Shown piece after piece: positions 48,657 to 56,283 of a DNA stretch of 64,000 nt. The translations under genes were made by a program, and so were the position numbers. Source of the stretch: Polaribacter sp. WD7 (GTDB taxonomy: Bacteria > Bacteroidota > Bacteroidia > Flavobacteriales > Flavobacteriaceae). Under the pieces are notes generated by a model. The model saw nothing but the letters and a program-made list of their open reading frames with translations. It searched no databases and had not been told where the DNA came from. Within the stretch, counting starts at the first letter, position 1. Each line of letters opens with the position of its first letter. The stretch is taken from NCBI RefSeq assembly GCF_003335085.1, contig NZ_QPEJ01000018.1:744001-808000 (forward strand). The letters run 5' to 3'.

Positions 48657-50606
<1,950 letters not shown>

Positions 50607-50644
50607 TTATATTTTGATTGATAATTGTATAAAATACAACCTAC

Positions 50645-50652
50645 CAAATATA
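50645..50652 (-). promoter_or_regulatory. Probable gyrB -7 element
   Basis: The minus strand reads TATATTTG, 51 nt before the ATG. Farther upstream lie two TGTTGATAAA direct repeats (50681-50690 and 50700-50709), possibly regulatory. Confidence 0.5.
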
Positions 50653-51077
50653 ATCAAATACATGGCTTTTTACAGTTTTATGTTGATAAAAATAAAAATT
50701 GTTGATAAATCTAAAAATGTCTTAAATAGCCTGTAAGGTATCTTAAATTTGATTTCTAGAGCTTATAAATAATTTTTTTTATTTAAAAATGAGATAATCG
50801 ATTGTAGCTTTTATAATGCAGTTTGGGTTTTTAGAAATTGTTTGCAAATAATTCAATAAAGGTTAATTTTTAATTGAAAACGGAAAAATCATCAGATGTT
50901 CAAACTTAATTTATAAAAGAGAAATAACTTAGGGTGATATTTTTTAAAAGAAAAGTAAAGAGACGCTATTAAATGTGTAGAATTTTAAAAACTAATAAAT
51001 TAAGAATCATAAATTTATCATATTCGTAATAAAATTTGGATATTTTAAAAAATAGTGTTTAGTCTATTTATTTACTC
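50653..51077. other. AT-rich divergent intergenic region
   Basis: About 425 nt between gyrB and the gat promoter. It contains the two TGTTGATAAA repeats near the gyrB end and otherwise very AT-rich sequence with stop codons in all frames. I see no gene, tRNA or strong hairpin in it. Confidence 0.6.
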
Positions 51078-51085
51078 TATATTTG
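51078..51085 (+). promoter_or_regulatory. -7 element of the gat operon leader
   Basis: TATATTTG lies 16 nt before the leader ATG, giving a predicted 5' UTR of about 12 nt. The -33 region lacks a clean TTG. Confidence 0.55.
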
Positions 51086-51101
51086 GCGACGAATTATATA
51101 T

Positions 51102-51149
51102 ATGAATCGTAATAATAACAATAATAATTTCAATAATCCTAATTTATAG
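51102..51149 (+). CDS. Asn-rich leader peptide of the gat operon
   Basis: A 15-codon ORF, MNRNNNNNNFNNPNL, with ten Asn codons (nine AAT, one AAC) out of fifteen and stop TAG at 51147-51149. It stands between a -7 element and a three-part hairpin set ending in a terminator, directly upstream of the genes for Asp-tRNA(Asn) amidotransferase. This is the arrangement of classic amino-acid leader peptides, where scarcity of one charged tRNA stalls the ribosome in the leader. Function is inferred; translation is not proven. Confidence 0.8.
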   Translation: MNRNNNNNNFNNPNL

Positions 51150-51210
51150 GTAAGGAAGGTTATTGTTTACATATAGATAAAACCTTCCAAATTTTGGAAG
51201 GTTTTTTTTT
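51132..51210 (+). promoter_or_regulatory. Transcription attenuator of gatC-gatA-gatB/aspS
   Basis: There are three alternative pairings. Region 1 AATAATCCT (51132-51140, within the leader ORF) can pair with AGGTTATT (51158-51164 and flanking base), a one-base bulge apart. Region 2 GGAAGGTT (51154-51161) is the exact complement of region 3 AACCTTCC (51181-51188), forming the antiterminator. Region 3 can instead pair with region 4 GGAAGGTT (51196-51203), forming the terminator. Regions 2 and 4 are identical 8-mers, so pairings 2:3 and 3:4 exclude each other. A ribosome stalled on Asn codons would cover region 1 and favour 2:3, allowing transcription. Confidence 0.78.
51179..51210 (+). terminator. 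Attenuator terminator hairpin of gat operon
   Basis: A perfect stem AAAACCTTCC / GGAAGGTTTT with an AT loop is followed by an unbroken T-run to 51210. It lies 19 nt before gatC. Confidence 0.9.
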
Positions 51211-51228
51211 GAAGCTAAATGAGTAACA

Positions 51229-51495
51229 ATGGGTAAAATGATGACAGTCGACATTTTGTCGAGTATTAAAGGAGCTAAAGAATCAGAGGCGGTTAGCAAA
51301 TTGTTTGATGCAATTAAAAGTGCTAATGTAAATAACATAGATTCAGAAAATAAATTTAAGAATGCAGTGTCTTTAGATGATTTGCGAGAAGATGTTGTTT
51401 TAGATAGCTCAACTATTGAGAAAGAAATCATTATCGAGAACTTTCCAAAAAAGAAAAATGGTTATCTGGTAGTTGCTAAAGTTATAGAAGAATAA
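51229..51495 (+). CDS. gatC: Asp-tRNA(Asn)/Glu-tRNA(Gln) amidotransferase subunit C (divergent)
   Basis: An 88-residue small subunit that stabilises the GatA-GatB interface. Identity rests on the C-terminal pattern SLDDLREDVV...NFPKKKNGYLVVAKVIEE, matching the family's LRxDxV and FxVPKVI-type end, and on its position before gatA. The N-terminal helix pair is divergent from textbook GatC. In-frame ATGs at 51238 and 51241 are alternative starts. gatA follows after 52 nt. Confidence 0.82.
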   Translation: MGKMMTVDILSSIKGAKESEAVSKLFDAIKSANVNNIDSENKFKNAVSLDDLREDVVLDSSTIEKEIIIENFPKKKNGYLVVAKVIEE

Positions 51496-51547
51496 ATTAG
51501 TTTTTGATTGTTTGTAAAACAGGCGATTAAGCTAAAAAACAATAGAT

Positions 51548-52945
51548 ATGAGTAAAATCAGAGAAATCCACAATAAGCTAAAAAACAAAGAGGTTACTTG
51601 TTTAGAGTTGGTGCAAGAAAAGTTGGATTTATTAAAATTAAATACCCACAACACTGTTAATTCGCTTTTAGATACCTTAGCTATAGATTTAGCAAAAAAA
51701 GTAGATGCTAAAATAGCAGACGGAAAAGAAATTGGGTTGCTAGAAGGAATTCCCTTTGGAATTAAAGATGTGTATATGGTACAAGGAACGTACACAACCG
51801 CTAGTTCAGATTTATTAAAAAATTATAAATCATCATACACAGCAACAGCTATTCAAAAATTATTGGATGCAGGTGCAATTCCTTTAGTAAAAGAAAATTG
51901 CGATAGTTTTGGCCACGGTTCATCATCAGAAAACACCATTTTTGGTGCTGTAAAAAATGCTGTAAATCCAACGTTAGTTGGTGGAGGTTCAAGTGGAGGT
52001 TCTGCTGTAAATGTAGCAAAAGAGTATACAATTTTTTCTATTGGAGGAGATACAGGGGGTTCTATTAGGCAACCAGCTGGTTATAACAATGTATATGGTT
52101 TAAAACCAACTTATGGTAGAATCTCTCGCTTCGGATTAATGGCCTACGCATCTTCTACAGATTGTGTTGGTCCAATTGCAAAATCATTAGAAGATATCAG
52201 AATTGTTTTAAACGCAATGAGTGCGAAGGATGTAAAAGACCAAACTACATATCAATCAGAAAGTATTTCTAAAGATGTAGTTTTACTTACTGATGAAATT
52301 AAAACGGTAGGATATTTTAAAAACTTTATAGAAAGTGAAGCCATTTCATCAGAAATAAAACAAAGTTTTTTAAGAACAATAGATACAATAAAATCAAAAG
52401 GAATTGCTGTAAAAGAATTGGATTTCTTTGAATCTGACACTTTAGTTTCTACTTATTATACTTTGGCTATGGCAGAAACCGCCTCTAATTTGTCCAGGTT
52501 AGATGGTACTAACTATGGCAACAGAATTGAAGGTAAAAATTTAAAAGATACGTATTCTATTACACGTTCAGAAAATTTTTCTGAAGAAACGAAACGCAGA
52601 ATTGTGGGAGGTAATCAAGTCTTGTCTCAAGGTTTTTCTGATGAAATTTATTTAAAAGGGTTGAATTTGAGAGATCAAATTGCTGCTAATTTTGAGAAAG
52701 ATTTTAAAAAGGTTGATCTTATTTTGTCACCTGTAACTCCCAATAATCCACCTAAAATTGGAGATAGCTTAAAAGATCCTTTGGCAATGTATTTGTCAGA
52801 TGCGTATACTGTTGGTTTTAGTTTAGGTCAATTACCAACGTTAACAACGCCAAAAGGAACAGCAACAGGAATTCAAATTACAGCAGCCAAAAAGAATGAT
52901 GAATTGGTTTTGCAATTCGCAAACTTTTTAAACGATATTTTATAA
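51548..52945 (+). CDS. gatA: Asp-tRNA(Asn)/Glu-tRNA(Gln) amidotransferase subunit A
   Basis: A 465-residue amidase-signature glutaminase subunit that releases ammonia from glutamine for use by GatB. The Ser-cisSer-Lys triad is complete and correctly spaced: K73 in GIKDVYMVQG, S148 in GGGSSGGS and nucleophile S172 in DTGGSIRQPAG. The surrounding GVYGLKPTYGR-type block (NVYGLKPTYGRISRFGLMA) is that of true GatA rather than a general amidase. The stop shares one base with the gatB-aspS ATG (TAATG), showing tight coupling. Confidence 0.96.
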   Translation: MSKIREIHNKLKNKEVTCLELVQEKLDLLKLNTHNTVNSLLDTLAIDLAKKVDAKIADGKEIGLLEGIPFGIKDVYMVQGTYTTASSDLLKNYKSSYTATAIQKLLDAGAIPLVKENCDSFGHGSSSENTIFGAVKNAVNPTLVGGGSSGGSAVNVAKEYTIFSIGGDTGGSIRQPAGYNNVYGLKPTYGRISRFGLMAYASSTDCVGPIAKSLEDIRIVLNAMSAKDVKDQTTYQSESISKDVVLLTDEIKTVGYFKNFIESEAISSEIKQSFLRTIDTIKSKGIAVKELDFFESDTLVSTYYTLAMAETASNLSRLDGTNYGNRIEGKNLKDTYSITRSENFSEETKRRIVGGNQVLSQGFSDEIYLKGLNLRDQIAANFEKDFKKVDLILSPVTPNNPPKIGDSLKDPLAMYLSDAYTVGFSLGQLPTLTTPKGTATGIQITAAKKNDELVLQFANFLNDIL

Positions 52946-55900
52946 TGGAGTTAGCACAATTAAATGAGCTTTTAAAAAAGCATGAATTAGAATTAGTTAT
53001 TGGTTTAGAAACACATGTTCGGTTAAATACAAAATCTAAATTATTTTGTTCTTGTGCCAATCAAGAAGCTGAAGAAGCTAACACTAATATTTGTTCTGTG
53101 TGCACAGGGCAAATGGGCGTGTTACCTGCTGTAAATAAAGAGGCTATAAAAAAAGCTATTTATTTTGGAAAAGCAGTACAATCTACTTTTGAAAACGAGG
53201 TTATTTCTTGGGATAGAAAACATTATGAATATCCAGATAATCCTAAGAATATTCAAATTACACAGTTTCATAATCCTGTAATTCCAGATGGTCAAGTGTC
53301 TTGTTTTAGAAATGATGGGTCTCAATTTACAGTAAATCTAACTCAAGTTCATATAGAGGAAGATGCTGCTAAATTAATGCATGAGAAAAACATTTCTTTG
53401 GTAGATTTTAATAAGGCAGGAGTTCCGTTAATAGAAATTGTGACAGAACCGTGTATCAGGCATATAGAAGATGCTTCCATCTATGCGCAATATATACAAA
53501 GAATTGTGCAGAATTTAAAAATATCTGAAGCAAACTTAGAAAAAGGGGAGTTTAAAAGTGATGTATCTGTTTCTTTAAGAAAAATAAATAGTGATGCATT
53601 AAACCCAAGAACAGAGATCAAAAACTTAAATTCTTTTAAGTTTATGGTAGATGCTTTAAAGGAAGAAATAGAAAAGCAATTAAATTATTTTATAGAGCAT
53701 AAAGAGTTTAGACCAGACCAAACTACAGTGTTGTTTGATGCAGATTTAAAGCAGACCAAAACAATGCGTAAAAAGGAATTTGAAGCGGATTACAGATTTA
53801 TTTCTGAACCAGATATTCCTTTTGTGGCTATTAAAAATGTTGTAGAAAGTATAGATGTAGATATTAGCTCTTTGCCTTTTGCAGTAGAATCAATTTTGAT
53901 AAAAGGTGGGGTTTTACCTCAAGATGCAAAGTTTTTTACAGCAGATTCTTTGCGTTCGGAAACCTTTATAGCACTAAATAATCAAATTAAAGACCCTTCT
54001 TTTGTAGCAAAAGCCTTGGTAAATAATATTGCTGCAGATGAGTATGTAAATATTCATGATGTAGCTAAACTCAGTGAAATTTTTCAATTATTTAAACAAG
54101 ATAAAATTACATCTGTTTTGGTTCAGAACGGAATCTCCAATTATTTAAAAGACAGCACTTTTGATTATAAAAAATACTTTGATGAAAATACCATTTCTGA
54201 AGATACCATTAAAAATGCTGTTGCAAAAGTAATTGTAGAAAATGAAGCAATTGCAAATGACATTAAAAATGGTAATCAAGGAAAATCAGGTATTTTAGTA
54301 GGTAAAATCATCAAAATTATTGGTAAAGGAGCTTCAGGGAAAGTAATTCGTGAAGAAATTCTGAAACAAGTTTCTGTTGATAAAGTTGGAAGCAAGAATT
54401 TAGAAATTGAAAGTAAAAAAACGTCTACCAATAACCAATCATCAACAACAAATAACCAACAAGAAGAATTACCGGAGATTCCTATTGTTATTAAAGATGA
54501 ATATAGAACACATAAAATAGCACAGCTATCAGAAAATACAATTAATGAAGAAGTACTTTTATCGGGTTGGGTAGCTAGTGTTCGTGATCATGGAGAATTG
54601 ATGTTTATTGATTTAAGAGGTTCTAATAACGAAATACTTCAGGTACGTTTAAGTAGAGAATCTTTCCCCAATTTAGACGAATTGGTAAAATTAAAACCAG
54701 AAACTGTAATTACCGTAAAAGGAATTGTTGTTCAGCGGAAAGAAGATGATTATAATGCTGGTTTAAGAACAGGTAAAATTGAATTAGAAACTGCTGAATT
54801 AGAAATTTTAAACCTTTCTAAAACATTGCCTTTTGAAATTAAAAGAGCAATGAAAACGAATGAAACAACACGTTTTCAGTATAAATTTTTAGATCATAGA
54901 AATGATGATGTTCGTAGAGCAATTGTAAACAGGCACAAAGTAATTAAATTATTGCGTGATATTTTAGATGAAGAAGAGTTTTTAGAAATTGAAACGCCAA
55001 TTTTAACAGCTGGCACAGATGAAGGAGCAAGAGAGTTTATTGTGCCTACTCGTAAAGAAGCAGGTTCTTTTTACACGTTACCGCAAGCGCCGCAGCAATT
55101 TAAACAAATGTTAATGGTAAGCGGCTATGAAAAATATTTTCAAATAGCACGTTGTTTTAGAGATGAGGATTCTAGAGGTGATAGACAGCCAGAATTTACA
55201 CAGTTAGATATTGAAATGGCATACGCAAGTATGCAACAAATCATAGACTTAAACACTAAAATGTTTAATGAAGTAGTAAAAAAAATCTACGGTAAAAAAT
55301 GGATTTTACATCCTTTTGTAACCATAACCTATAAAGAGGCTATGGATAAGTATGGATGTGATAGACCAGATTTACGTTTTGGTTTAGAAATGCAAGACAT
55401 TACTAATATTGTAAAAGACACCACTTTTCAGGTATTTAGCAAACCAATAGATGAGGGCGGAATTGTAAAATGCATCAAAGTTACTGCCAAAGAGCAAGGA
55501 AACAAACGTATGTCTAAAGGTCAAATAGAAAACTTAACTGCAATTGCTCAACAAAATGGGTTAGGTGGTTTGGCATACATTATCGTAAATGAAAACGATT
55601 TACAATCACCAATTATTAAGTTTTTAGGAGAAGAAATTGCGGCTAACATTATCAAAGAAACCAATGCAAAAGTTGGTGATATTGTATTCTTTTCTGCTGC
55701 AGATTATGCAACTGCTAACAAAGCCTTAGATGCTGTTCGACAAGAAATGGGGCGTATGTTAAAGTTGATAAACCCTAAAGAATTGAGACCAGCTTGGGTA
55801 GTAGATTTTCCAATGTTTGAAAAAACAGATGAAGGTAGATGGACGTTTACACACAACCCTTTTTCTATGCCGGCTATCTATGACCTAGAAAAACACATGA

Positions 55901-56283
55901 CTGGAAATAATGATGAAATAGGAACCATTATTGCTCAGCAATACGATTTAATCTTAAACGGCTATGAAATTGGGGGAGGTTCTGTTCGTGCTCACAAATC
56001 AGAAATCTTAGAAGCTACCTACAAAAACATGGGGTATAATAAAGAAGAAATGATTAAAAGTGTGGGTACTATGCATAAAGCCTTTCAATATGGAGCACCA
56101 CCTCATGGAGGAATTGCTTGGGGGGTAGATAGATTGATGATGATTTTAGAAAAAAAAGTATCTATTAGAGAAGTAATGGCTTTTCCTAAAACAGGTACTT
56201 CAGAAGATCTATTATTTAATGCTCCTTCTATTTTGCCAGATAAAAAAGTTGAAGAAATGAATGTGAAAATTATCAGAAATTAA
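52945..56283 (+). CDS. GatB-aspartyl-tRNA synthetase fusion
   Basis: A 1112-residue bifunctional protein. Residues 1 to about 400 are the GatB kinase/transamidase core (VIGLETHVRLNTKSKLFCSC, RKHYEYPDNPKN, HIEEDAAKLMHE), then the GatB/YqeY tail domain to about 485 (GKIIKIIGKGASGKVIREEI). An Asn/Gln/Ser/Thr-rich linker (about 490-512) follows. The rest is a full bacterial AspRS: OB-fold anticodon domain, class II core with motif 2 (FQIARCFRDEDSRGDRQPEF), a GAD insertion domain, and motif 3 GGIAWGVDRLMMIL. H549 in VRDHGEL occupies the position where non-discriminating AspRS enzymes carry His and discriminating ones Leu. One chain would thus charge Asp onto tRNA-Asn and amidate it, with GatA and GatC. 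Confidence 0.95.
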   Translation: MELAQLNELLKKHELELVIGLETHVRLNTKSKLFCSCANQEAEEANTNICSVCTGQMGVLPAVNKEAIKKAIYFGKAVQSTFENEVISWDRKHYEYPDNPKNIQITQFHNPVIPDGQVSCFRNDGSQFTVNLTQVHIEEDAAKLMHEKNISLVDFNKAGVPLIEIVTEPCIRHIEDASIYAQYIQRIVQNLKISEANLEKGEFKSDVSVSLRKINSDALNPRTEIKNLNSFKFMVDALKEEIEKQLNYFIEHKEFRPDQTTVLFDADLKQTKTMRKKEFEADYRFISEPDIPFVAIKNVVESIDVDISSLPFAVESILIKGGVLPQDAKFFTADSLRSETFIALNNQIKDPSFVAKALVNNIAADEYVNIHDVAKLSEIFQLFKQDKITSVLVQNGISNYLKDSTFDYKKYFDENTISEDTIKNAVAKVIVENEAIANDIKNGNQGKSGILVGKIIKIIGKGASGKVIREEILKQVSVDKVGSKNLEIESKKTSTNNQSSTTNNQQEELPEIPIVIKDEYRTHKIAQLSENTINEEVLLSGWVASVRDHGELMFIDLRGSNNEILQVRLSRESFPNLDELVKLKPETVITVKGIVVQRKEDDYNAGLRTGKIELETAELEILNLSKTLPFEIKRAMKTNETTRFQYKFLDHRNDDVRRAIVNRHKVIKLLRDILDEEEFLEIETPILTAGTDEGAREFIVPTRKEAGSFYTLPQAPQQFKQMLMVSGYEKYFQIARCFRDEDSRGDRQPEFTQLDIEMAYASMQQIIDLNTKMFNEVVKKIYGKKWILHPFVTITYKEAMDKYGCDRPDLRFGLEMQDITNIVKDTTFQVFSKPIDEGGIVKCIKVTAKEQGNKRMSKGQIENLTAIAQQNGLGGLAYIIVNENDLQSPIIKFLGEEIAANIIKETNAKVGDIVFFSAADYATANKALDAVRQEMGRMLKLINPKELRPAWVVDFPMFEKTDEGRWTFTHNPFSMPAIYDLEKHMTGNNDEIGTIIAQQYDLILNGYEIGGGSVRAHKSEILEATYKNMGYNKEEMIKSVGTMHKAFQYGAPPHGGIAWGVDRLMMILEKKVSIREVMAFPKTGTSEDLLFNAPSILPDKKVEEMNVKIIRN

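Follow-up and report, generated by a model that had tools for sequence, protein, structure and literature searches.

A putative asparagine-sensing leader-peptide attenuator upstream of the gatC-gatA-gatB::aspS operon in Polaribacter and other Flavobacteriaceae

The gatC-gatA-gatB::aspS operon in the window, the 64,000-nucleotide stretch of Polaribacter DNA analysed here, is very probably preceded by a conserved ribosome-mediated attenuator, found where AsnB is missing, whose amino-acid specificity and target are both new. We consider it highly likely that this attenuator monitors tRNA(Asn) charging and thereby regulates the genes making asparagine on tRNA(Asn). A short ORF filled with Asn codons, alternative RNA pairings and a terminator lie directly before gatC, their position and the operon content are kept in relatives, and AsnA and AsnB were not found in the genome. 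In the mechanism that we infer, the fused AspRS would make Asp-tRNA(Asn), which GatCAB would amidate. With ample Asn-tRNA(Asn), a ribosome translating the leader would reach the stop codon and cover region 2, so that regions 3 and 4 would pair and transcription would end before gatC. When Asn-tRNA(Asn) is scarce, the ribosome would stall in the Asn run and leave region 2 free to pair with region 3; no terminator would form, and the operon would be transcribed. The locus has the following features.

48657–50594, minus strand: gyrB, identified by eye, the divergent neighbour upstream
51078–51085, plus strand: −7 promoter box TATATTTG (TAnnTTTG, Bacteroidota-type), 16 nt before the leader ORF
51102–51149, plus strand: leader peptide ORF MNRNNNNNNFNNPNL, 15 codons, 10 Asn, stop TAG
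51113–51131, plus strand: region 1, Asn-codon run plus TTTC, can pair with region 2 (RNAalifold consensus, pair counts)
51137–51151, plus strand: small hairpin CCTA..TAGG spanning the stop codon (RNAalifold consensus, pair counts)
51154–51167, plus strand: region 2, the antiterminator strand, GGAAGGTT (51154–51161) followed by ATTGTT
51181–51188, plus strand: region 3, AACCTTCC, shared partner of region 2 in the antiterminator and of region 4 in the terminator
51196–51203, plus strand: region 4, the second GGAAGGTT copy
51179–51210, plus strand: intrinsic terminator (3:4) with T-run, 12 perfect pairs at 51179–51205 and T's to 51210
51229–51495, plus strand: gatC, directly before gatA (TIGR00135, E 2.6e-6, 27.6 bits, under the cut-off of 47.1)
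51548–52945, plus strand: gatA (TIGR00132, 419 bits, E 1.8e-125, under the cut-off of 481)
52945–56283, plus strand: gatB::aspS fusion, 1112 aa (NF004012 and NF001750 both above cut-off in one ORF)

The initial annotation had described the 15-codon ORF with ten Asn codons and the identical 8-mers at 51154 and 51196 competing for one at 51181, and all these positions agree with ours. The perfect terminator with a T-run that it had placed before gatC is likewise present, separated from the gatC start (51229) by 18 nt instead of 19 nt; its amidotransferase/AspRS operon is there as well, with gatB and aspS as one fused gene. Because the upstream neighbour is divergent, a plus-strand terminator at this place has no transcript of another gene to end. 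TAnnTTTG, a consensus that agrees with passages of PMC9723704, is found no more than 75 nt ahead of the leader in all 63 relatives, and in 53 of the 63 it stands 16–20 nt before the ATG. A start codon only 16–20 nt after the −7 box would favour early ribosome loading.

The leader codons (ATG AAT CGT AAT AAT AAC AAT AAT AAT TTC AAT AAT CCT AAT TTA TAG) form a short ORF, translatable as predicted from its sequence, in which codons for the regulated amino acid are over-represented. Among the window's 790 ATG ORFs of 8–30 codons it ranks first in Asn richness, the runner-up having 0.30 Asn, and comparable ORFs (at least two-thirds Asn, at least 8 Asn) were absent from the 61,491 ATG ORFs of 8–30 codons in 60 Markov-1 shuffles. 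The peptide is common to 99 leader rows (one a probable duplicate), each with 6–10 Asn in frame and 14–17 codons; the consensus over these rows reads M-x-x-N-N-N-N-(R/N/L)-N-F-N-N-(P/S)-N-x-stop, with TAG as the stop in 97. One leader of the family sample starts with GTG. Two Asn codons are invariant over the 99 rows, and six more are present in 84–97 of them. At seven of the eight main Asn positions, AA-N codons end exclusively in T or C; the exception is the last position, where nine of the 99 rows have Lys. Such third bases do not prove coding by themselves, since the pairing of region 1 with GUU repeats also demands T or C in part of the run. The length changes from 14 to 17 codons, which keep the frame, add to the coding evidence, as does the kept AATAAT before CCT, which is unpaired in the consensus structure and paired in the version of the initial annotation.

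The leader RNA folds with z = −3.64. Shuffling the 79-nt segment 20,000 times produced a triple made of an 8-mer, its reverse complement and the same 8-mer in 33 cases. Two further 8-mer triples in the window were dismissed, both lying inside long ORFs. RNAalifold, applied to 61 distinct sequences, paired the Asn-codon run with GTTGTTG and TTTC with GGAA, and recovered the stop-codon hairpin and the terminator; the 3' part of region 2 is GTTGTT in most relatives, complementary to the Asn codons. Altogether, 98.8% of the cells pair in this consensus structure, compared with at most 60.4% when it is slid. The stop-codon hairpin is paired in 99.0% of cells, with C-G changed to U-A in 6 of the 61 sequences, and the terminator in 99.4%, with G-C changed to A-U in 9 of the 61. 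Compensatory changes in these two elements amount to 15 cells against 3.3 in shuffles, and the two-sided changes fall on only 2 of the 24 pairs of 1:2 and 3:4, which is no excess over the shuffle mean of 1.6. For the 2:3 antiterminator, 95.7% of cells are paired, whereas slid versions reach 70.5% at most, and no covariation was seen in this helix among the aligned leaders, as expected because the strand is held in competing pairings. Hence, the initial annotation's expectation of conserved Asn codons with covarying 2:3 and 3:4 pairs holds for the Asn codons and for the retention of both pairings, and does not hold for covariation in 2:3. The 1:2 pairing of that annotation survives in 97.1% of cells, with no covariation, and the alignment consensus gives a different form; both forms are possible. 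As in known attenuators, an intrinsic terminator stands before the first structural gene, and a mutually exclusive 2:3 pairing is kept in relatives.

Conserved residues could also arise if the nascent Asn-rich peptide itself, and not slow decoding of Asn codons, halted the ribosome, a reading that we regard as very improbable. The residues in question are kept over the 99 rows as an arrest peptide might require (Phe in 99 of 99, Pro or Ser in 91 and 8, and Arg partly, in 45). Their codons, however, coincide with RNA pairs, namely TTTC with GGAA, and CCT or TCT together with the TAG stop in the small hairpin, in which 6 of 61 sequences are changed on both sides. The hairpin explains the conserved Pro/Ser codon and the TAG stop, and Pro becomes Ser only by a change of CCT into TCT. 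Two codons before Phe, a position left unpaired by the RNA consensus, the residue may be R, N, L or T, and the last sense codon is variable (F, L, C, I, H, Y, S and others). Since RNA pairing accounts for the conserved Phe, Pro and TAG, an arrest peptide need not be invoked, and we retain slow decoding of Asn codons as the preferred reading.

An equally slim chance attaches to a constitutive terminator or small RNA unit having no switch, in which the Asn run would be a chance ORF in AT-rich sequence. The genome is indeed AT-rich, yet none of the 61,491 shuffled ORFs was equally Asn-rich, and frame, start, stop and Asn codons are preserved across the 99 rows. The antiterminator strand is also kept at a set distance, region 2 starting 6–8 nt downstream of the stop codon's first base in 56 of 63 leaders. 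Least probable of all is a riboswitch or T-box-like element binding asparagine or tRNA(Asn) directly, to which the strong conservation of the RNA sequence (mean column identity of the alignment 80%) might point, but codons and helices explain that conservation, and Rfam found no family at gathering score in positions 50600–51600 (1001 bases, E up to 5), the best match being Phe_leader with 28.8 versus 55 bits and no T-box family occurring among the nine weak matches.

The attenuation mechanism was examined by folding 63 leaders at 20 °C, with the RNA masked to 12 nt past the first base of the A-site codon (a 13-nt mask, which we take to be the ribosome footprint) and the transcript ending at region 3. 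The predicted median probability of the 2:3 pairing stays at 1.00 while the ribosome is in the Asn run, falls to 0.83 on the last Asn codon and to 0.49 on the final sense codon, and drops to 0.01 when the stop is reached. According to this model, slow decoding anywhere in the Asn run leaves the antiterminator free, and a finishing ribosome blocks it. The initial annotation had proposed that low Asn-tRNA(Asn) stalls the ribosome, allows 2:3 pairing and turns the genes on, which both the comparison and the folding support. It had also cautioned that stalling at the earliest Asn codons might not mask region 1; this concern is eased because slow decoding anywhere in the run is predicted to suffice, region 2 being free at any Asn codon and covered near the stop.

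For the ribosome-free transcript to region 3, the predicted median 2:3 probability is 0.996 at 20 °C. The preference for 2:3 in RNA bearing no ribosome means that, at equilibrium, untranslated RNA is predicted to read through. Taken alone, the helices have median energies of −11.9 (1:2), −10.9 (2:3) and −15.1 (3:4) kcal/mol at 37 °C, and of −20.4, −17.2 and −21.4 kcal/mol, in the same order, at 15 °C; 2:3 is stronger than 1:2 in 20 of 63 leaders at 37 °C and in 10 of 63 at 15 °C. As 1:2 is no weaker than 2:3, it could win kinetically by forming first, and in this model termination of untranslated RNA would depend on it doing so.

Downstream of the attenuator, the fusion protein matches GatB over residues 13–475 and a complete bacterial-type AspRS over residues 519–1109. 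The fused frame, 1113–1130 aa from stop to stop, was present in all 69 GatC genomes tested, each of which also has a separate second AspRS; three GatC-less controls own only the separate one. No paper on an AspRS-amidotransferase fusion was found in a search of the open literature. The other charging genes of the genome are AsnRS (606 bits), GlnRS (730 bits) and the separate AspRS of 585 aa. The fused AspRS carries RDHG, like two solved enzymes named Asp/Asn ligases (4wj3 and 4rmf), whereas 1efw and 6hhv have RDLG and the separate AspRS has RDKG. We take the His of RDHG to be a mark of relaxed AspRS enzymes. A second site presumed to mark relaxed specificity (Gly) is unmatched in the fused AspRS. 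The fused enzyme would be the one that charges tRNA(Asn). The tRNA(Asn) starts with U1-A72 in all 24 matches from 22 genomes, the pair required by bacterial GatCAB according to passages of PMC4206432 and PMC9976931, and it is not discriminating, since GatC-less relatives show it too.

With both AsnRS and GlnRS present, GatCAB is unneeded for plain charging of tRNA(Asn) or tRNA(Gln), and we dropped the notion that it serves such charging in place of a missing AsnRS or GlnRS gene. Neither AsnA nor AsnB was found in the genome, where the best asparagine synthase match was no better than E 8e-17. The operon is therefore best read as an asparagine biosynthesis route, a refinement of the initial annotation, which had assigned it to making Asn-tRNA(Asn). 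Homology and genome content indicate that the operon supplies the amino acid being sensed, or its charged tRNA, most likely by making asparagine from aspartate on tRNA(Asn), as the only recognisable asparagine route of the genome.

The distribution of these genes in the genus agrees with this reading. GatC occurs in 76 of 166 genomes and AsnB-type genes in 80, namely in none of the 76 GatC genomes and in 80 of the 90 others (Fisher p 1e-36, uncorrected for relatedness), and AsnA occurs in three further genomes. The AsnB-type genes were chosen by eye as those with the main match ending at profile position 384–387, including G027 with an interrupted frame. When nine of the 80 were fetched to check this typing, the eight intact ones scored 925–954 bits on NF006949 (cut-off 499), and the ninth was interrupted. 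Seven genus genomes have neither GatC nor an AsnB-type gene nor asnA; most are less than 90% complete, with G121 and G158 above 90%. A synthase gene fragment was seen in G139. AsnB-like proteins above the cut-off of the broad model TIGR01536 occur in 20 of the 76 GatC genomes, and all 22 such proteins listed for these genomes score 233–325 bits on NF006949, below 499. A free-asparagine synthetase may still be present in these 20 genomes. In the family sample, 59 of 397 genomes have GatC, and a broad-model asparagine synthase match (E 1e-60) is lacking in 37 of the 59, compared with 30 of the 338 others; none of the remaining 22 GatC genomes, which hold such a match, reaches the NF006949 cut-off.

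The attenuator is confined to part of the GatC genomes. In the genus, the Asn peptide lies upstream of gatC in 62 of 76, with 13 lacking it and one masked. A covariance model gave 64 strong matches of at least 85 bits in the 166 genus genomes (the next at 54) and 37 matches of at least 96 bits in the 397 family genomes (the next at 50), the latter in 27 genera and all among the 59 GatC genomes, 22 of which have no leader. The leader adjoins gatC in each of the 30 family loci that the scan fetched, as well as in six others. Homologues that keep the terminator and have lost the ORF or its Asn codons, named beforehand as evidence against the proposal, did not turn up: every readable strong match bears the Asn peptide, and the CCTTCC/GGAAGG hairpin occurs in none of 34 leaderless loci (12 genus, 22 family) within the last 450 nt before gatC. 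G065, the 13th leaderless genus genome, has neither peptide nor hairpin within the 225 nt examined. Since hairpin and peptide are absent together, the operon exists in one form that has the attenuator and another that lacks it. Among the leaderless loci, 11 of 12 in the genus and 11 of 22 in the family sample have TAnnTTTG no more than 75 nt from gatC, and most of the others show near forms of the box, such as TAATTTTA or TAATTTCG. On a GatC tree of 132 proteins and 89 columns, excluding G065 and the masked locus, parsimony requires 20 leader changes, at least 5 of them forced by starred branches; the alignment is too short for GatC to resolve the number of gains and losses. In G060 (L160, L161), one of the 13, the leader stands at a contig end with its terminator cut, and gatC follows unrelated sequence on another contig; a rearrangement or assembly break has parted attenuator and operon. 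No sign of a leader was seen on asnS, and a weak model match (40.5 bits) about 4 kb upstream of it, on its strand, was rejected as an ordinary terminator that has no Asn ORF.

As a tentative broader reading, the attenuator, gatC-gatA and GatB::AspRS as a covalent transamidosome might form a Flavobacteriaceae asparagine cassette that stands in for AsnB genome by genome and could be gained, lost or exchanged together with its own sensor.

Attenuators of the enterobacterial type, known by the class names his, trp, leu, thr and phe, share with the present element a short leader rich in the sensed amino acid, alternative 2:3 and 3:4 pairings, an intrinsic terminator before the first gene and a stop codon near region 2. 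Unlike them, the Flavobacteriaceae element would sense asparagine and control genes of tRNA-dependent amidation, and its 1:2 pairing is not clearly dominant in folding. It also differs in its flavobacterial host, which lacks Shine-Dalgarno sequences according to passages of PMC9723704. In the Actinobacteria survey PMC1262725, the main text of which holds neither 'Asn' nor 'asparagin', leader peptides likewise govern genes whose product is a charged tRNA, whereas the synthetase of the present operon is fused to an amidotransferase subunit and would make the amino acid on the tRNA. Bacteroid-trp RNA (RF01692) is a leader RNA of the same phylum, with a tryptophan peptide leader per Rfam; it concerns a different amino acid and is absent from the Rfam matches in the window's leader. 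Passages of PMC4206432 describe GatCAB beside AsnRS and GlnRS, with U1-A72 in tRNA(Asn), in Deinococcus, Thermus and Bdellovibrio, the last having no Asn synthetase; tRNA-dependent asparagine synthesis is demonstrated there for Bdellovibrio, and the same is stated of Deinococcus and Thermus. The second AspRSs of that survey are archaeal-type and belong to Deinococcus-Thermus, in contrast to the bacterial-type enzyme fused to GatB here, and its passages on regulation do not mention leader attenuation.

Searches of the open literature, covering titles and the starts of abstracts, gave no paper on an Asn-specific leader peptide or a gatC leader, in agreement with the initial annotation, and we found no open paper joining GatCAB, AspRS and Flavobacteri. 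PMC9723704 reports clues for leader-peptide attenuation at amino-acid operons of Flavobacterium psychrophilum; asparagine is unnamed in its main text, and its tables may hold an earlier mention of the element. In Bacteroides thetaiotaomicron, long 5' UTRs hold short ORFs reminiscent of such leaders, according to passages of PMC7366714. The attenuator proposed here would extend leader-peptide sensing of amino acids to asparagine and would tie such a sensor to a pathway that makes an amino acid on its tRNA, in a simple, testable regulatory system of marine bacteria initiating translation independently of Shine-Dalgarno sequences. It would also bear on the question that passages of PMC4206432 raise for Bdellovibrio, why owners of AsnRS and GlnRS retain GatCAB.

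Ten of the leaderless genus loci (L025, L030, L032, L049, L051, L058, L062, L078, L085 and L207) have another conserved unit farther upstream, consisting of a TTTGATTTGAATTTACTGAATTAA-like sequence, a CACCAA..TTGGTG hairpin with T's and then a TAGTTTTG box before gatC. In some of the loci, the TTTGATTTGAATTTACTGAATTAA-like sequence contains a very short ORF, FDLNLLN; two of its codons are for Asn, and its start codon is not conserved. Bacteroid-trp matches barely over threshold lie near three leaderless gatC genes (L030:2113-2227, L082:675-788 and L036:1038-1157).
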